Below are positions 3-27,542 of a stretch of 33,026 nucleotides of DNA, in pieces. The DNA is from a virus. The stretch lies in IMG/VR virus record IMGVR_UViG_3300047319_000924, positions 1 through 33,026 of that record. One strand, written 5' to 3'. A program made the translations under genes and the position numbers. The stretch's first letter is position 1, and every line of letters begins with the position of its first letter. The notes below the pieces were generated by a model, which had not been told where the DNA came from, did no database searches, and saw only the letters and a list, made by a program, of their open reading frames with translations.

Positions 3-1049
3 AATGCCGCCTTGGATTTTTACTACAACAAGGGAGACACTTTTAAACAGTCGATCCAGGCCAAGCCCCTCCTGAAGTGGGCCGAAGGGTCAAGCAAGTC
101 GTTCCCGGGTGGCAAGGGTAATATTTCCCTGGCCGTGAAGGGCGACTACGGCGCGGGCGGCGTCAACGATCATGTCGTGGGCTACACCCACAATGACACG
201 GTGAACTTCTACACGCCGGCCAACATCAAGCGGGTGAACTTCCCGTGGCGCGAGCATCACATCGGTCTCACGCTGACGCACACCGAACTGAAGATCGACG
301 GCATCTCGATCACCGACGACGCCGGCAACGGTTCGGACATGAGCAATCATTCCGACCGCGAAGTGACTGTCCTGGTGAACCTGCTTCAGGACAAGCTGGA
401 GGACTTTGGCGAACAGTATGCGCGCAACATGAACACCCTGCTGTGGGGCGATGGGACCGCCGACGCCAAGGCGCTGGCCGGGATGCAGAGCATCATCCTG
501 GATAGCCCCGCCGTGGGCACCACGGGTGGCCTCGCGCGCACAAATACATGGTGGCGCAACCGCGCCGCCACGACGGCGTTCGGCGCCGCCGGGGGCCGGG
601 GACCGGTGACTTCGTCGCCCACCAACGGCGGCGCGCTCATTGAGTTTCTGCAACAGGAATACCGGCAGTTGATCCGGTATGGCGGCAAGCCCTCCAAGGC
701 CCTGGCCGGCAGCGCCTTCATTTCGGCCATGGAAACCGAGTTCCGCGCCAACGGCAACTACAGCATGACGGGCTTCACCGGCACGCAGGATGGCTCCATG
801 GGGCAGCTTAAACTCCCCGGCGGCACCATGATCGAGTACGACCCGACGCTGGACGACCTGGGCTTCACCAAGCGCCTCTACTGGTGGGACCCGAGGCACA
901 TCTACCTGATGAAAATGGACGGCGAGTGGGATCACCGGTTCACCCCCGCGCGGCCTTACAATACTTTCGTCATGTATAAATCCCTTACGCATACGGGACA
1001 AATGTGCGCCCAGCAACTCAATGGTTCGGGCGTGTATGACATAGCTTAA
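3..1049 (+). CDS. Major capsid protein, 5' truncated
   Basis: The reading frame is open from the left edge. The residues before the first possible start (Asn-Ala-Ala-Leu-Asp-Phe-Tyr-Tyr) read as protein, so the gene begins upstream and about 348 residues are visible. The sequence looks like a phage coat protein: mixed alpha/beta, with a helix rich in Glu, Asn and Gln around residues 120-145 (NLLQDKLEDFGEQYARN) followed by a GDG turn, and an aromatic C-terminal part (YWWDPRHIYL) typical of the axial region of HK97-fold capsids. It is first in a set matching the T7-like order capsid, adaptor, nozzle, gp13, gp14, gp15, gp16, which supports the call more than any single motif. The stop is followed after 14 bases by a strong hairpin, as often seen after highly expressed capsid genes. 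Family membership is inferred from pattern and context; a different structural protein is possible but unlikely. Confidence 0.75.
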   Translation, partial: NAALDFYYNKGDTFKQSIQAKPLLKWAEGSSKSFPGGKGNISLAVKGDYGAGGVNDHVVGYTHNDTVNFYTPANIKRVNFPWREHHIGLTLTHTELKIDGISITDDAGNGSDMSNHSDREVTVLVNLLQDKLEDFGEQYARNMNTLLWGDGTADAKALAGMQSIILDSPAVGTTGGLARTNTWWRNRAATTAFGAAGGRGPVTSSPTNGGALIEFLQQEYRQLIRYGGKPSKALAGSAFISAMETEFRANGNYSMTGFTGTQDGSMGQLKLPGGTMIEYDPTLDDLGFTKRLYWWDPRHIYLMKMDGEWDHRFTPARPYNTFVMYKSLTHTGQMCAQQLNGSGVYDIA

Positions 1050-1063
1050 ATCTTGCCTTTCGA

Positions 1064-1091
1064 CGGGACGGGACAAGCGTGTCCCGTCCCG
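1064..1091 (+). terminator. Perfect hairpin after the capsid gene
   Basis: The 11-bp arms CGGGACGGGAC (1064-1074) and GTCCCGTCCCG (1081-1091) are perfectly complementary, with a 6-base loop. No T-run follows, so this is either a weak or partial terminator or an RNA-stabilising hairpin between the capsid gene and the next ribosome binding site near 1107. It would let capsid transcripts outnumber downstream ones. The GGGAC/GTCCC unit recurs twice more just downstream. Confidence 0.6.
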
Positions 1092-1119
1092 GGACCACCC
1101 GGGACAGGAGGATGACCCG

Positions 1120-1338
1120 ATGCACGCTTCGACTTTTGAATATCTCAAGCCGACCGACTTCCAGTTACAGGTGATGGCGAACGTGCGGGCGGAGTTCCGC
1201 TTGTTCATGGAAAGCCTTGAACATTCCATACCCGCTGGCCCGGACAAGACCTATCTGATGCGCCAGCTACGCGACTGCGCGATGTGGGCGAACATCGCGA
1301 TCACGCGCAACCCGGACGGCTCCCCGAGGACAGACTGA
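1120..1338 (+). CDS. Acb2-like cyclic-nucleotide sponge (anti-CBASS)
   Basis: This is a 72-residue protein with a strong AGGAGG ribosome binding site near 1107-1112. The pattern fits the small helical Acb2/T4 Vs.4 family: an N-terminal aromatic segment (F6, Y8, with Pro at 11), a first amphipathic helix (VRAEFRLFMESLEH, residues 22-35), a Pro-Asp turn (IPAGPDK, 37-43), then a helix ending in the family signature MWANIAITRN (55-64; family form MWANAxIARN). Known Acb2 proteins form hexamers that bind cyclic di- and trinucleotides made by CBASS enzymes, so they starve the effector of its signal and act in the host cytoplasm. Its place directly after the capsid gene suggests a moron-type defence gene or co-expression with structural genes. 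The assignment rests on pattern recognition from memory; binding residues have not been checked by alignment. Confidence 0.72.
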   Translation: MHASTFEYLKPTDFQLQVMANVRAEFRLFMESLEHSIPAGPDKTYLMRQLRDCAMWANIAITRNPDGSPRTD

Positions 1339-1339
1339 C

Positions 1340-2035
1340 ATGAACTTTCAACTTTTGCGCTGCTCCGTGGCGCTGGCCGGCGACCCCGAACAGGTGGTGG
1401 TCCGGCACCGAGGCCGGCCCATCGTCTTCCCGGAACTGATCGTGCTTCAGTTTCTGCACGGCGAGGAAGCGATCCAGGACATCCACGTGGTTGGCGAGTG
1501 GGACGCGACGCAGGCCGAAGTGCTGGAACGCCTGAAACTCACCTATGGCGACAAGGCCGTGGCCGAGGTCTTCCCGGGCGCGCGGCCCCGGTTGCCTCTG
1601 GCGGACGGCTCGCTGCCCATTTGCGTGGAGCCGATCCACGTCCCGGGACCGACCCGTCCCGACAGCCCCGACCCGATCCTCAAGCCGCTCGATGTCTTCA
1701 CCATGCCGGCCTCGATGCCGCGCGTGGTGAACACGTATAAGGACGAACCGCCGCCGCCTGACGTGAGCATCGACCAGATCGCGGGCCACGACGCCGATGA
1801 CCTGGGCGACGATCCCCTGGGGTTGGTGGACGTGGTCACGGCGGCGCCCAAACCCGAGATGCCCGACGCGGCCAGTTTCCGCGCCCGGGACAATATCCGG
1901 GGCGAGGGGACCAGCGCGCCCAGGACCGCCGATCACCTGCCCGACGTGGCCGGCGGCGCCATGCGACGCGAAAGCGAGGGCAACCTGACAGCGCGGACAA
2001 CCCGTGCCGCCCGGTTGAACCTGACCAATGGGTAA
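1340..2035 (+). CDS. Conserved head-region protein, function unknown
   Basis: This 231-residue protein starts one base after the previous stop. Residues 1-90 form a compact mixed domain (FPELIVLQFLHGEEAIQDIH, then a helix and VAEVFPG). The rest, from about residue 100, is Pro/Asp-rich and probably disordered, ending in a basic Arg/Ala stretch. Proteins of this shape sit between the capsid and the head-tail adaptor in BPP-1-like podoviruses; no enzymatic motif is visible. The gene overlaps the next one by 8 bases, so the two are probably translationally coupled. A head decoration or minor head protein is possible, but this is inference from position only. Confidence 0.7.
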   Translation: MNFQLLRCSVALAGDPEQVVVRHRGRPIVFPELIVLQFLHGEEAIQDIHVVGEWDATQAEVLERLKLTYGDKAVAEVFPGARPRLPLADGSLPICVEPIHVPGPTRPDSPDPILKPLDVFTMPASMPRVVNTYKDEPPPPDVSIDQIAGHDADDLGDDPLGLVDVVTAAPKPEMPDAASFRARDNIRGEGTSAPRTADHLPDVAGGAMRRESEGNLTARTTRAARLNLTNG

Positions 2036-2771
2036 GCAACTGCGCGACATGCTGACGGATCTGCGCGCTGAGTTAGGGCACTCCACCAACGTCGCGCACG
2101 GCATCAACGACCGGGACACGCTGCTCTACTATCTGAACAGGACCCAGCTTGATCTTTACCGGGACTATGACTGGCCGCAACTGATCGTGGACCGGGACAC
2201 GGACATGGTCCAGGGGCAAAGATACTATCAATACCCGGCGGATCTGACGTTCGAGGACGTGAGCAAACTCTGGCTCATCTCCGACAGCAACATGTGGATA
2301 TCGAACGTCACCTACGGCATCGGCCCACGTGAAATGCGCCTCTACGACAGCGACGCCGGCGCTCAGTCCTGGCCCCCCAGGCGCTGGATGCACAATGCCG
2401 ACAGCGGCATGTTCGAGGTCTGGCCGATCCCCGACGTGACCACCGTGGATCACGATGGCAGGCTGAGAATGCGCGGGACCAAAACCGTCACGCCCATGAT
2501 CCAGGACAGCGATCAGGCGACCCTGCCGGATCATCTGATCGTGCTGTTTTGCGCCGCCGAGATACTGGCCCGGGACGAAGCCAAAGACGCGCAACTCAAG
2601 ATGACCAAGGCGAACGAAGTCATGCGCCGGCATCGCGTGCGCCAGTACTCGCACAAACGCGAGCCCTTCGTGATGGGCGGCGGCGGTGGGGACGCGCGGG
2701 CGCCGATGGGCGAGTTCGATACCGGCGTGGTGGGGTTGGATTACATCCCACCGGGCTACGGTTCGGGCTGA
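2028..2771 (+). CDS. Head-to-tail adaptor, P22 gp4 / T7 gp11-like
   Basis: This is a 247-residue protein. The N-terminal 60 residues are helical (LRDMLTDLRAEL, then LLYYLNRTQLDLYRDYDWPQL), a pattern typical of phage adaptor proteins that dock under the portal. A beta-rich middle has conserved aromatic turns (YYQYPADL, SWPPRRWMH, FEVWPIPD). It is followed by LPDHLIVLFCAAEILARDEAKDAQ, the helix that usually closes this domain, and a Gly-rich tail. It would extend the portal channel and carry the nozzle. The next gene begins just after its stop, and its position matches the tail tubular A gene of T7. The family is recognised by pattern, so the exact structural role is an inference. Confidence 0.72.
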   Translation: MGKQLRDMLTDLRAELGHSTNVAHGINDRDTLLYYLNRTQLDLYRDYDWPQLIVDRDTDMVQGQRYYQYPADLTFEDVSKLWLISDSNMWISNVTYGIGPREMRLYDSDAGAQSWPPRRWMHNADSGMFEVWPIPDVTTVDHDGRLRMRGTKTVTPMIQDSDQATLPDHLIVLFCAAEILARDEAKDAQLKMTKANEVMRRHRVRQYSHKREPFVMGGGGGDARAPMGEFDTGVVGLDYIPPGYGSG

Positions 2772-4188: not shown

Positions 4189-4934
4189 TTGAAGTCACGC
4201 GCGAGCCCGTCACCCGGGCGGCGGTGGACCATATCATCGCCAACCTGCGGGAGCATGACGCGCGGGAGATCTACGCGCAACGCTGGGATGATGACCCCAG
4301 GGCCCTGGCCGACTACGTCATGGTGCTGGCGTGCAACGACCTGTGGCGAACATTCTGGGCGGACGGCGAGCCCGTGGCGATGATCGGCGCCACGCTGATC
4401 CGCCCCGGCGTTTGCATGCTGTGCGGTTGCGGCACGAACCGCTGGGGCCGGGTCATCCGGCCTCTGACCCGCTACGTGCTGGACGAGATGATGCCCGCCG
4501 TGCTGCGCGCGGGGGTGCATCGCGCCGAGTGCCAGGTCATGGCGTCGAACACCCAGAACCTCAAATGGATCATGAGTTTGGGCGGCGAGATCGAGGGCAC
4601 GCTGCGCGGCTACGGGCGCGGCGGCGAGGACTTTCTGGCTTTGGGGTGGAGACGGGATCATGTGCATGGGTCATGGCGGCGGTTCCAGCGGGCCGCAGAT
4701 GGCGGACTACACGGACACGTCGAACAATATCGAGCGGGCCGAGGCGGGGATACCGCAACAGTATTTCGACCGGGGTGCCCGGACGGTGGCGCAGTACCAG
4801 TTGATGGCGCAGCAGGACGCGTCCGATCAGCAACTGAGCCAGCAGAAGCAGATTTCGGACCAGCAGAACGCGTTCAACCAGCAGCAGGTCGCGGATCAGA
4901 AGGCGCAGCAGGACAAGCTCCAGGCCCAGGCTGA
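4185..4934 (+). CDS. T7 gp13-like internal virion protein (GNAT-type), with extended overlap
   Basis: The start is GTG at 4185, sharing four bases with the previous stop. Residues 1-155 match the gp13/DUF2833 group related to GNAT acyltransferases. Visible features are a helix around 15-30, the strand segment GEPVAMIGATLIRPG (60-74), CGCGTNRWGRVI (79-90), a long helix into the conserved GVHRAECQVMASNT (about 111-124), and LRGYGRGGEDFLALGW ending at W155. In T7, gp13 is a minor morphogenesis protein; acetyl transfer has not been shown. After residue 155 the frame stays open for about 94 residues of Arg/Gly-rich sequence overlapping the next gene by 275 bases. That tail looks like a shadow of the next gene, so either a stop has been lost, a base is missing, or the tail is real overprinting. 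Confidence 0.65.
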   Translation: MIEVTREPVTRAAVDHIIANLREHDAREIYAQRWDDDPRALADYVMVLACNDLWRTFWADGEPVAMIGATLIRPGVCMLCGCGTNRWGRVIRPLTRYVLDEMMPAVLRAGVHRAECQVMASNTQNLKWIMSLGGEIEGTLRGYGRGGEDFLALGWRRDHVHGSWRRFQRAADGGLHGHVEQYRAGRGGDTATVFRPGCPDGGAVPVDGAAGRVRSATEPAEADFGPAERVQPAAGRGSEGAAGQAPGPG

Positions 4935-25525: not shown

Positions 25526-26188
25526 ATGTTCAACGACCCTGACCACCACTCAATCGCTTCCCCGGCTAACCGAGTAACTCACCCCATGACTACTATCCCC
25601 TACCGCATGAAGCGTTCCATCGCCATGGCCACGGCGCTGGCGCCGGCCAACCCAGAACTTGAAAAGTTCCGCGACAACCTGATCAAAGGCATGGCAGCCA
25701 GGCATATGTCCGGTTCGGACGTGGCCCGTGCCGTCTGGGGCGTCAAAACCGACGCCCGGGGCAAACAAGTCGCGAGAAATCGCGACCGCATGACCCACTA
25801 TCTGGCCGGGCGCGGCTACCCGCGTCCCGAGACCGTGTTGAAGCTGGCCGAGGTTCTGGGCCTGGACCCGAAGGACCTGGAGCGCGAACCCGGCAAAGCC
25901 GCGATCCCGCCGCCCTTCGTCTGGGGCGACGCCGGCCCGTCCCCCGCATCGGGACAACAACCCGCCAGCGAAGGGACCGGCGCGCCGGTCCCGTCGCCGT
26001 CTCGGACCCCGGGAACCAGCGCGTTCAGGTTCGACGTGCAAACCCTGGGACGCGTGCATTTCCACTATGACAAACTGGTGGACATGCGGCTGGCGATCCG
26101 GCTGTTCGACGCGATCCGCGCGATAGACCCGGAGTTCCACGATCTGGGGCCGGGACCGGTCCCGGACGGCAAACCGCCGGAAGATTGA
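25526..26188 (+). CDS. XRE-type regulator, candidate phage repressor
   Basis: This is a 220-residue protein. The helix-turn-helix lies at about residues 47-117: FRDNLIKGMAARHMSGSDVA starts the fold, and RPETVLKLAEVLGLDPKDLE closes it as in XRE proteins. A Pro/Ser linker follows, then a C-terminal helical unit (YDKLVDMRLAIRLFDAIRAI). There is no S24 peptidase Ser-Lys pair, so it is not a LexA-cleaved CI protein; induction, if any, must work differently. The ATG at 25526 has a weak AAGGG site; the next in-frame ATG at 25586 has the same preceding sequence type (AACTCACC), so the true start is uncertain. It is the first gene of the plus lysogeny group. Confidence 0.72.
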   Translation: MFNDPDHHSIASPANRVTHPMTTIPYRMKRSIAMATALAPANPELEKFRDNLIKGMAARHMSGSDVARAVWGVKTDARGKQVARNRDRMTHYLAGRGYPRPETVLKLAEVLGLDPKDLEREPGKAAIPPPFVWGDAGPSPASGQQPASEGTGAPVPSPSRTPGTSAFRFDVQTLGRVHFHYDKLVDMRLAIRLFDAIRAIDPEFHDLGPGPVPDGKPPED

Positions 26189-26196
26189 GCCCCCAC

Positions 26197-26607
26197 GTGA
26201 TCGAACTGCTCACGCAGCGGGAAGCCGCCGCGCTGTTGCGCTGCGGGCTCTCCAAGATCCAGGCGCTGCGCCGCGACGGCAAGCTGCCTTATTTGCCGGG
26301 ACGACCGGTTCTCATACTCAAACAGGATATTGAAAAGTGGCTCTCAAAAAACATCAAATCAGCAAGCGGACCGGTATCGCCAAACCCGACCGGAGCCGTC
26401 GCCGCCCCGGCGAAAGCGCCATCGAGTGGACGGTTCGCACTGCCTGGCTTTCCCCCAACGCGACCGGCAAATGGGTCATCAAATACACCATCGCCACCGA
26501 CACGCCGGACGGTAAAACCACCTACCGGACATCGGAACAATCCACCCGGGCCACCGACAAGATCGCGGCGGAAGACTATTTCACCCGTTGGCGGGACCAC
26601 GCGCTAA
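26197..26607 (+). CDS. Excisionase-like HTH protein overlapping the integrase
   Basis: The frame opens at GTG 26197 or at an earlier TTG (26185) that overlaps the repressor stop. The first 50 residues are a classic small MerR/excisionase-type domain: LLTQREAAALLRCGLSKIQA, then RRDGKLPYLPGRPVLI and a helix ending in EKWL. Such proteins bend DNA at attachment sites and steer the integrase towards excision. Beyond about residue 50 the sequence turns into Pro/Ser/Thr/Arg-rich material running 271 bases inside the integrase gene in another frame. That part looks like a shadow rather than a domain. The functional protein is probably the first 55-60 residues, with a missing stop or a frame change into the integrase as possible explanations. 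Confidence 0.6.
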   Translation: MIELLTQREAAALLRCGLSKIQALRRDGKLPYLPGRPVLILKQDIEKWLSKNIKSASGPVSPNPTGAVAAPAKAPSSGRFALPGFPPTRPANGSSNTPSPPTRRTVKPPTGHRNNPPGPPTRSRRKTISPVGGTTR

Positions 26608-27542
26608 GCCTGAAACAGAATGGTATCACGCGATACACGTTCCGTGACGTGGCCAGCGCCTACAAGACCACACGCACGCAACGGTTCTCCGACGCGAACG
26701 ACCAGAAAGCGCGCCAGCTTTGTGACTGGCTGGGCGATGATCCGGTGGACGCCATTCAGGAACGCCGCCTGGACGAGCTACACGCCATCCTAACGGCGGA
26801 AGGCTACGCGCCGGGCACGGTGCGGAACTTCCTGTCCGTGGCGCTGACTTTGCTACGTTACGCTGAGCGCAACGACATGGTCCCGAAGAACTCCACGCCC
26901 CGCTACAGGATGCCATCCGTGCCCGACTCAAAACCGCACGCGCTAACCCAGGAACAGGACGCCATGACGTTCGCCGCCGCCGCCGCGTGGGGCCAGGACA
27001 GCCAGGACCCGGTAAAACTCAGGACCGGCTTGTTTGTCTGCATCGCGCTGGACACCGCGCAGCGCCGCGAGGCCATACTTAAACTCACCTGGGAGCGGAT
27101 CGACCTGAAGAACGAACTGATCGACTTCACGGACCCAAAGCACGCACCCAAAAACAAGCGGCGTTGTGACGCCATGCCGATCATGCCCCGCCTCATGAAC
27201 GTGCTGAACCGCGCGGCGCTCACCGCCAGGAAGAACCCGGCGGGCGAGTCCACCGGGCTTGTGTTCCCCACGCATCGCCTGTGGGAGGGCTTCGTGGCGT
27301 TCCGGGACGCGGCGGGCCTGCCCGCGTGGTTCACCCCGCATACCTGCCGGCACACCTGGGTCACGCTGGCGATGGGCACACAGATGCCGCTCCAAACAAT
27401 TTCAGACATGACCGGGGACAGCGTGGCGACGCTCCAAAAGACATACACGCATGTCCACGTAAATACTCACCGCGAAAACCTGAAGCGGTTTCTCTATCAC
27501 GTCCACGCCAGTCCGCCTTCACCGCCCGGAGCGAACTCATGA
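26337..27542 (+). CDS. int: Tyrosine site-specific integrase
   Basis: This 401-residue protein inserts the phage genome at an attachment site through a 3'-phosphotyrosine link. Catalytic residues are visible: Arg243 in AQRREAILKLTWERI, His335 and Arg338 in HTCRHTWVTLAMG, and the nucleophile Tyr370 in QKTYTHVHV. The N-terminal part includes an AP2-like beta region (GKWVIKYTIATDTPDGK) and a SAM-like core-binding domain (about 95-190). The start is GTG at 26337, inside the HTH gene. Its stop overlaps the next ATG. The integrase makes the element temperate, or recently so. The attachment site could not be recognised in this window. Confidence 0.93.
   Translation: MALKKHQISKRTGIAKPDRSRRRPGESAIEWTVRTAWLSPNATGKWVIKYTIATDTPDGKTTYRTSEQSTRATDKIAAEDYFTRWRDHALSLKQNGITRYTFRDVASAYKTTRTQRFSDANDQKARQLCDWLGDDPVDAIQERRLDELHAILTAEGYAPGTVRNFLSVALTLLRYAERNDMVPKNSTPRYRMPSVPDSKPHALTQEQDAMTFAAAAAWGQDSQDPVKLRTGLFVCIALDTAQRREAILKLTWERIDLKNELIDFTDPKHAPKNKRRCDAMPIMPRLMNVLNRAALTARKNPAGESTGLVFPTHRLWEGFVAFRDAAGLPAWFTPHTCRHTWVTLAMGTQMPLQTISDMTGDSVATLQKTYTHVHVNTHRENLKRFLYHVHASPPSPPGANS

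Follow-up and report, generated by a model that had tools for sequence, protein, structure and literature searches.

A divergent Acb2/Tad1-hairpin gene at an allele-exchange site behind a phage capsid gene

The reading frame and its family

The 33,026-base virus contig analysed here, referred to as the window, starts inside a capsid gene, and directly behind that gene stands a reading frame of 72 codons. What does so small a gene encode, and what might its product do at this place? A sequence-only reading of the DNA had proposed an anti-CBASS protein of the Acb2/T4 Vs.4 family. The features that bear on this question are the following:

3–1049 (+): gene for the major capsid protein, truncated by the start of the contig (NF033394, PHROG 9953)
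1064–1091 (+): perfect 12-bp stem with a 4-base loop in the interval between the capsid gene and acb2 (from the fold)
1106–1111 (+): AGGAGG ribosome-binding site, 8 bases 5' of the acb2 ATG (from the sequence)
1120–1338 (+): R-type acb2 gene, 72 aa, Acb2/Tad1-hairpin protein (ORF, PF24729, PHROG 1454, AlphaFold, hhalign)
1156–1230 (+): variable core of acb2, codons 13–37, approximately helix 1 (DNA identity to the sister contig L107, per-column variability)
1340–2035 (+): "G3", 231 aa, without an assigned function (ORF; starts 1 base behind the acb2 stop)
2028–2771 (+): SU10-type head-tail adaptor gene (PF24175, E 6.1e-14)

NCBIfam NF033394 (E 2.7e-72) and PHROG 9953, major head protein (E 8e-31), identify the product of 3–1049 as a major capsid protein of podovirus type, an assignment that upholds the placement of acb2 directly after a capsid gene. 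The descriptive particulars of the sequence-only reading were recovered as well: the frame starts with ATG, its 72-residue product carries the MWANxAIxRN motif as MWANIAITRN (residues 55–64), a Pro-Asp turn within PAGPD (38–42) and an aromatic N-terminus (F6 and Y8), and the AGGAGG site is present, from which the sequence-only reading surmised high expression. Between the two genes, the segment 1040–1125 folds with −33.8 kcal/mol (z −2.4; equalled by 4 of 200 shuffles); the 12-bp stem within it has no T-run behind it and is found by eye, whole or with differences, in the related loci L283, L292, L294 and L295. The reverse-strand ORFs 90–1247 and 1301–2119 match no Pfam family and were taken as spurious frames arising from high GC. 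No Pfam family was matched by G3, and within the window there is no tRNA or Rfam match at gathering score. Because relatives of the acb2 product are encoded at 68 IMG/VR loci and dN/dS is low in three of seven acb2 pairs (given below), the acb2 frame is more than a chance ORF.

The gene is real and its product is a member of the Acb2/Tad1-hairpin family (PF24729), as had been proposed. The window protein by itself matches PF24729 with E 9.9e-5 but scores only 22.9 bits against a curated cut-off of 27; the match begins at its residue 8 and covers profile positions 2–58 of 58. "Divergent member" was an apt description. It also matches PHROG 1454 (E 3e-10), which T4 Vs.4 matches weakly, via its C-terminal part. 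Alignment A1, hereafter the clade, comprises 45 distinct proteins from the 68 loci plus the window protein (46 rows). PF24729 matches all 46 sequences (E up to 0.1; best E 6.3e-13), and of four proteins scored, L078 (34.7 bits) and L058 (31.6 bits) pass the cut-off, with L107 (26.2 bits) and the window protein under it. On these scores, PF24729 membership holds for the clade and is borderline for the window sequence alone. In a control with PF24729 at E up to 1, matches occurred in 8 of 14 well-known genomes, above the cut-off in 0 of 14. Profile-profile comparison by hhalign of A1 with T4 Vs.4, PaP2 p26, JBD67 gp34, Jasmine gp9 and KimJongPhill gp38 gave a probability of 96.1 and E 3.6e-9, and a search of IMG/VR with the A1 profile found 328 stretches encoding a relative, the best 80 of which were kept.

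Predicted structure points the same way. The AlphaFold model (pLDDT 92.9) has helices at residues 3–9, 13–34 and 41–62 and consists of helices only, save isolated bridge residues 63 and 69. The modelled layout, in which two long antiparallel helices come after a short one, is that of an Acb2 protomer, which the excerpted text of PMC12043709 gives as a short helix plus two long helices. In a structure search of BFVD, ranks 1–12 are all named Acb2/Tad1 hairpin (E 0.0074 to 0.11), with no match at E 0.001 or better. Against the PDB, T4 Vs.4 ranks first both with Foldseek (E 1.4, not significant) and with VIA (Z 6.6, 64 aligned, rmsd 3.2), unrelated helical chains being tied at 6.4 in the latter. 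Profile, BFVD and residue evidence together decide the family; the PDB comparison alone would not.

Sequence searches of the PDB did not reach the solved Acb2 chains: the single protein found nothing beyond a chance match (MAD protein, E 0.72), and the clade profile found one designed helical bundle (E 0.01, with no individually passing stretch) and one other chain. PADLOC (2023) and NCBIfam hold no model matching the window protein. In INPHARED, the window protein retrieved 4 records from two phages at 29–31% identity, and the clade member L058 retrieved one record at 39% identity; the R-type subfamily is almost without cultured members there. A pattern-limited search of the genome contig collection found at least two loci with relatives, one of them spanning residues 23–70 only. 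In G001, PF18144, the one CD-NTase family searched, was not found. Most such genes are named as hypothetical in the phage records examined, as the sequence-only reading had anticipated.

Pocket residues of the R-type clade

The 46 clade rows were set against a canonical set of 90 distinct short hairpin sequences from IMG/VR (113 loci kept), gathered with the Jasmine and KimJongPhill proteins as queries. Both sets share Phe6 (46/46 in the clade, 89/90 in the canonical set), Arg23 (46/46 and 90/90), Trp56 (46/46 and 90/90), Asn58 (45/46 and 90/90) and Arg63 (46/46 and 87/90). Tyr8 is present in 42 of the 46 clade rows, the others having three His and one Asp, and 75 of the 90 canonical sequences have Tyr or Phe there. 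Elsewhere the sets differ sharply. Position 19 changes from His in 80/90 canonical sequences to Met in 46/46 clade rows. Position 41 changes from Arg (88/90) to Pro (46/46) and position 42 from Glu (88/90) to Asp (46/46), an invariance that is perhaps slightly inflated, both residues lying within GPDKTYLM, one of the six clade search patterns (19/46 rows). At position 48, Thr in 85/90 canonical sequences (a count that is not inflated, Thr being present in 80 of the 85 rows without a Thr-bearing pattern), and also in T4, PaP2 and JBD67, is replaced by Arg in 46/46. At position 51, Glu in 87/90, a count inflated by the search pattern EEAMFWAN that contains it (65/90 rows), is replaced by Arg in 46/46. 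Positions 48 and 51 lie outside all six clade search patterns.

Position 48 corresponds to T4 T68 and is the sole invariant column in the five-member alignment. The window Y8 is in register with T4 Y8, and R23 aligns with T4 K23 and with PaP2 K26, which we take to be a ligand contact. In the excerpted text of PMC12657230, T4 Acb2 Y8A is binding-deficient and T68M is a mutation that lowers binding affinity. The comparison of ligand-contact residues suggested by the sequence-only reading thus came out divided: Tyr8 and the basic residue 23 are kept, whereas the T4 T68 equivalent is Arg in all 46 rows. Since Arg48 replaces the canonical Thr throughout the clade, the ligand of R-type proteins may differ from that of canonical Acb2.

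In a tree, the clade forms one side of a branch with support 98/95, and ScoobyDoobyDoo gp210 adjoins it at 100/97; both figures are rough, given few columns and an unsettled bootstrap. Judged from these alignments, the window protein appears to lie outside the canonical T-type subfamily and to belong to the wider Acb2/Tad1-hairpin family only. The family itself is already known; what is new, within the literature covered here, is an R-type subfamily with fixed pocket changes.

Named systems place these changes in context. T4 Vs.4/Acb2 (PDB 7UQ2) shares with the window protein the register of Tyr8, a basic residue 23, MW in helix 2 and the short helix plus hairpin, but it has a longer hairpin loop (88 aa in total against 72 aa), carries T68 where the window has Arg48, and lacks the PDGSPR-like tail of the window protein. 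PaP2 p26/Acb2 (PDB 8H2J) is a PF24729 member (65.3 bits) whose Tyr11 and Lys26 align with the window Tyr8 and Arg23, yet it has a longer insert, Thr at the Arg48 position and no MWAN motif. JBD67 gp34, reportedly tested as an Acb2, is likewise a PF24729 member (57.1 bits); it differs in being longer and in having Thr at position 48. The actinophage proteins Jasmine gp9 and KimJongPhill gp38, at about 30% identity to the window protein and with 53–56% of the layout common by eye, are short hairpins with no insert and share F-x-Y, Arg23, P-x-G, MWAN or FWAN, and Arg63, but read GRE...T..EE where the window clade reads GPDK...R..R(D/E). Mycobacterium phage ScoobyDoobyDoo gp210, at 39% identity to a clade member, has the Asp42, Lys43, Arg48 and Arg51 of the clade; unlike the clade, it has Ala41, Thr in place of Trp56 and Leu in place of Arg63, and it carries a long extension at its C-terminus. 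The helical hairpin of Tad1 falls by name in the same Pfam family; however, Tad1 has an N-terminal beta-sheet domain (PMC12043709, in the excerpted text), whereas the window protein has 7 residues before the hairpin match and no N-terminal sheet in the model.

Some relatives deserve separate mention. In Arthrobacter phage Jasmine (L071), a second PF24729-like gene at 4472–4672 (21.3 bits, under the cut-off) lies directly behind the first, a possible tandem sponge pair. The clade member at L059:4001–4288 has a C-terminal extension to 95 aa. A PaP2 p26 relative in Pseudomonas phage MR7 (L169, 2501–2731; tblastn, 37.6% identity) is annotated "NAD/FAD-utilizing enzyme", which looks like a misannotation.

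A variable slot and exchanged alleles

Is the place behind the capsid gene a property of the subfamily? Relatives elsewhere were taken from 81 non-redundant places, 64 of which have a same-strand upstream neighbour, giving 59 neighbours of at least 70 aa on the same strand. PHROGs assign 3 of the 59 to this head-protein family, all from this phage group; 6 are Sak4-like annealing proteins, and several are terminases, portals and primosomal proteins, among the 25 of 40 families listed. Upstream neighbours are mostly other genes, so the link to the capsid gene belongs to this phage group rather than to the R-type subfamily. The genes of T4 and PaP2 lie away from the major head gene, that of PaP2 adjoining replication genes on the other strand. 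The idea that an Acb2 gene behind a capsid gene is unprecedented is ruled out by JBD67 gp34, two genes behind the major head gene gp32 with another gene between them, which is the nearest precedent for the position. By tblastn, two more phages encode PaP2 p26-like proteins behind the capsid gene, at a distance of three genes in Shewanella phage 1/41 and of four in Vibrio phage 1.087.A.

Within the phage group, the slot between the capsid gene and G3 was compared across 80 loci with related capsid genes, the best 80 of 126 found; G3 lies behind the capsid gene in 76 of them. Counted as contigs, many of them from kindred metagenomes, and not as independent events, 39 of the 80 loci have a gap of at most 150 bases and no gene, 6 carry R-type acb2 (L283, and L287–L291 with one protein sequence among them), 1 carries a T-type Acb2 (L295; PF24729, E 7e-13), 8 an HNH-like gene (by Pfam only for L285, the others by likeness), 16 a small basic MPSxSKAQSRLMHG protein and 6 other ORFs; the last 4 have no G3 match. 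A profile search of the 80 loci found Acb2-type proteins in those seven only (six R-type and L295). Even sister phages with capsid proteins 94–99% identical differ here, some with a different acb2 allele, some with an HNH gene or, in one case, a canonical Acb2, and some with nothing in the slot; the 16 loci at or above 94% capsid identity comprise 6 R-type, 1 T-type, 2 HNH-like and 7 empty slots. L295 holds a canonical Acb2-type gene, so the site has received such proteins at least twice.

The leader GGGACAGGAGGATG(C/A)CCC immediately precedes the start of G3 in the empty loci L292 and L294, the T-type gene in L295, and acb2 in the window, L283 and L287. Within this phage group, the sponge ORF therefore lies, give or take a few bases, between a ribosome-binding site and the start codon of the gene that follows. 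The empty locus L297 has a similar leader; the empty loci L284, L296, L298 and L299 and the HNH-bearing L285 have other leaders.

Other occupants of the slot were noted as well. In L285 and L286, whose capsid proteins are 98–99% identical, an HNH endonuclease gene (HNH_3, E 7.1e-7; L285:4060–4464) takes the place of acb2, and six further loci have an HNH-like gene there by eye; the slot HNH gene may help cassette exchange. The MPSxSKAQSRLMHGVASG... protein occupies the slot in L301, L303, L304, L306, L308, L317, L320 and L323 and further in L325–L327, L331, L332, L338, L347 and L348; the one of these 16 that was scanned has no Pfam match.

Close relatives of the window show how alleles change at the site. 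L107 (the same contig as L035 and L283) is the clean case, with a capsid protein 99% identical to that of the window. Measured per 60 bases over 1.8 kb, its DNA identity to the window is 87–98% before position 1081 and after 1380, falls to 81–85% at 1081–1140 and 1261–1380, and to 58–63% at 1141–1260. Synonymous sites have diverged more in acb2 (0.97) than in the capsid gene (0.18) or the compared part of G3 (0.20), and sister alleles differ most in codons 13–37. The L107 allele is 90.5% identical over 210 bp to that of L079, the sole match between 1.7 kb of L107 and the 10-kb L079 locus. L078 (the same contig as L007), with a capsid protein 97% identical to that of the window, also differs from the window elsewhere; in 12 kb each, it has only acb2 in common with L091 (90.0% over 209 bp). 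In the acb2 tree, the window groups with L002 (support 95/78) and then L003 (98/86), L035 with L008, and L007 with L021; three near relatives therefore carry three alleles, each with different nearest kin. Fast point mutation as the cause of low identity between sister alleles is ruled out by the 90% matches of L107 with L079 and of L078 with L091, together with the gene tree.

We conclude that acb2 is a swappable cassette whose alleles are exchanged between phages. Among seven acb2 pairs, dN/dS is 0.04–0.06 in three and 0.10–0.39 in the other four; the three close pairs have 15–21 synonymous against 3–5 non-synonymous differences, and near pairs (3 of 7) are under purifying selection. A site where phages exchange alleles and classes of sponge is, with the R-type subfamily, the second new element of this work: the excerpted literature on Acb2, anti-CBASS and capsid-side anti-defence genes (PMC12043709, PMC12657218, PMC11722364, PMC10419184, PMC10286901, PMC12657230 and PMC13348362, each in part) contains no description of an R-type subfamily or of the slot.

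Proposed function and its alternatives

We consider it probable that the gene encodes a small helical sponge of the Acb2/Tad1-hairpin type for a defence nucleotide signal, supplied from the cassette site behind the capsid gene. The predicted product, a small all-helical protein with a short helix and then a two-helix hairpin, would most likely assemble into an Acb2-like oligomer. Such an oligomer would bind a nucleotide second messenger of host defence, a cyclic di- or trinucleotide of CBASS being the likeliest, and once the messenger is bound the defence effector would not be triggered. acb2 appears to use the leader and ribosome-binding site that serve the next gene in some sister phages without acb2; with these elements lying behind the capsid gene, the late structural transcript is probably the message from which it is translated. 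The swapping of alleles presumably reflects differences between hosts, either in the signals they use or in their sponge-guarding systems, and the HNH gene in sister slots offers one guess at how the cassettes might move.

Three other readings deserve weighing against this one. A sponge of the same fold could bind a signal outside CBASS, for example of the Thoeris gcADPR type or a cyclic oligoadenylate of type III CRISPR, with the Arg48/Arg51 pair remaking the pocket for it. The fixation of both substitutions in 46/46 sequences, rather than a scatter of changes, speaks for such a shift, as does the name of PF24729, which also covers Tad1, a gcADPR sponge (PMC12043709, in the excerpted text). 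However, Tyr8, Arg23, Trp56, Asn58 and Arg63 are kept, and altered contacts need not alter the class of ligand; we hold a non-CBASS signal to be unlikely. The position between the capsid gene and the adaptor genes would suit a small head-associated structural or assembly protein, a helical hairpin with no role in immunity. Against this, the slot is empty in 7 of the 16 sister loci at or above 94% capsid identity, only 3 of the 59 upstream neighbours of relatives match this head-protein family, and the profile and fold matches are Acb2/Tad1 hairpins. This reading was set aside as the main one because sister phages do without the gene, and we give it very little credence.

The protein might also be a sponge relative that lacks tight binding, or that binds so narrowly that guards such as Panoptes stay untriggered. 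According to the excerpted text of PMC12657230, Panoptes is triggered by Acb2, and the escape cases related to Panoptes include T4-like phages whose Acb2 carries T68M or whose acb2 is deleted; the T68-equivalent position is the one altered in the R-type clade. Yet the substitutions are fixed to a defined set, unlike scattered decay, and near pairs (3 of 7) are under strong purifying selection, which leaves this the least credible of the readings, scarcely to be expected. The sponge for a defence nucleotide, most likely one of CBASS, is thus the reading we prefer.

Going beyond it, we offer a broader proposal that we regard as speculative and would not yet bet on. R-type proteins might form a largely uncultured sponge class with a remade Arg48/Arg51 site, directed at an immune nucleotide not favoured by canonical Acb2 or sparing the guards that sense sponges, and the slot might be a counter-defence socket under the control of the capsid gene, at which alleles and classes are swapped and whose small genes would be candidates for counter-defence. 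The T-type gene of L295 and the R-type gene of the window, at one site in near-identical phages, form a natural matched pair. If R-type proteins bind, comparing T48 with R48 would show how hairpin sponges choose their ligand; and should the slot prove to be a counter-defence socket, the other small genes in it would become ranked candidates.

Further observations concern the rest of the window. A tyrosine integrase is encoded at 26337–27539 (PF00589, E 7.4e-11), and the region 25526–27539 (+) joins to it an HTH-domain protein (under the Pfam cut-off); together the two suggest that the window phage is temperate. At the contig end, 32007–32831 (−) encodes a CobT_C VWA-domain protein (PF11775, 23.4 bits, cut-off 21) with an acidic Gly-Glu-Ala repeat before the domain, either a phage gene or host flank. 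The hexamer CGGGAC/GTCCCG occurs 127 times in the window against about 43 expected from trinucleotides, spread over the window on both strands and in all three frames of one long gene; it is as dense in L284–L286 (3.4–4.0 per kb) and rarer in six remoter relatives (0.7–2.3 per kb).
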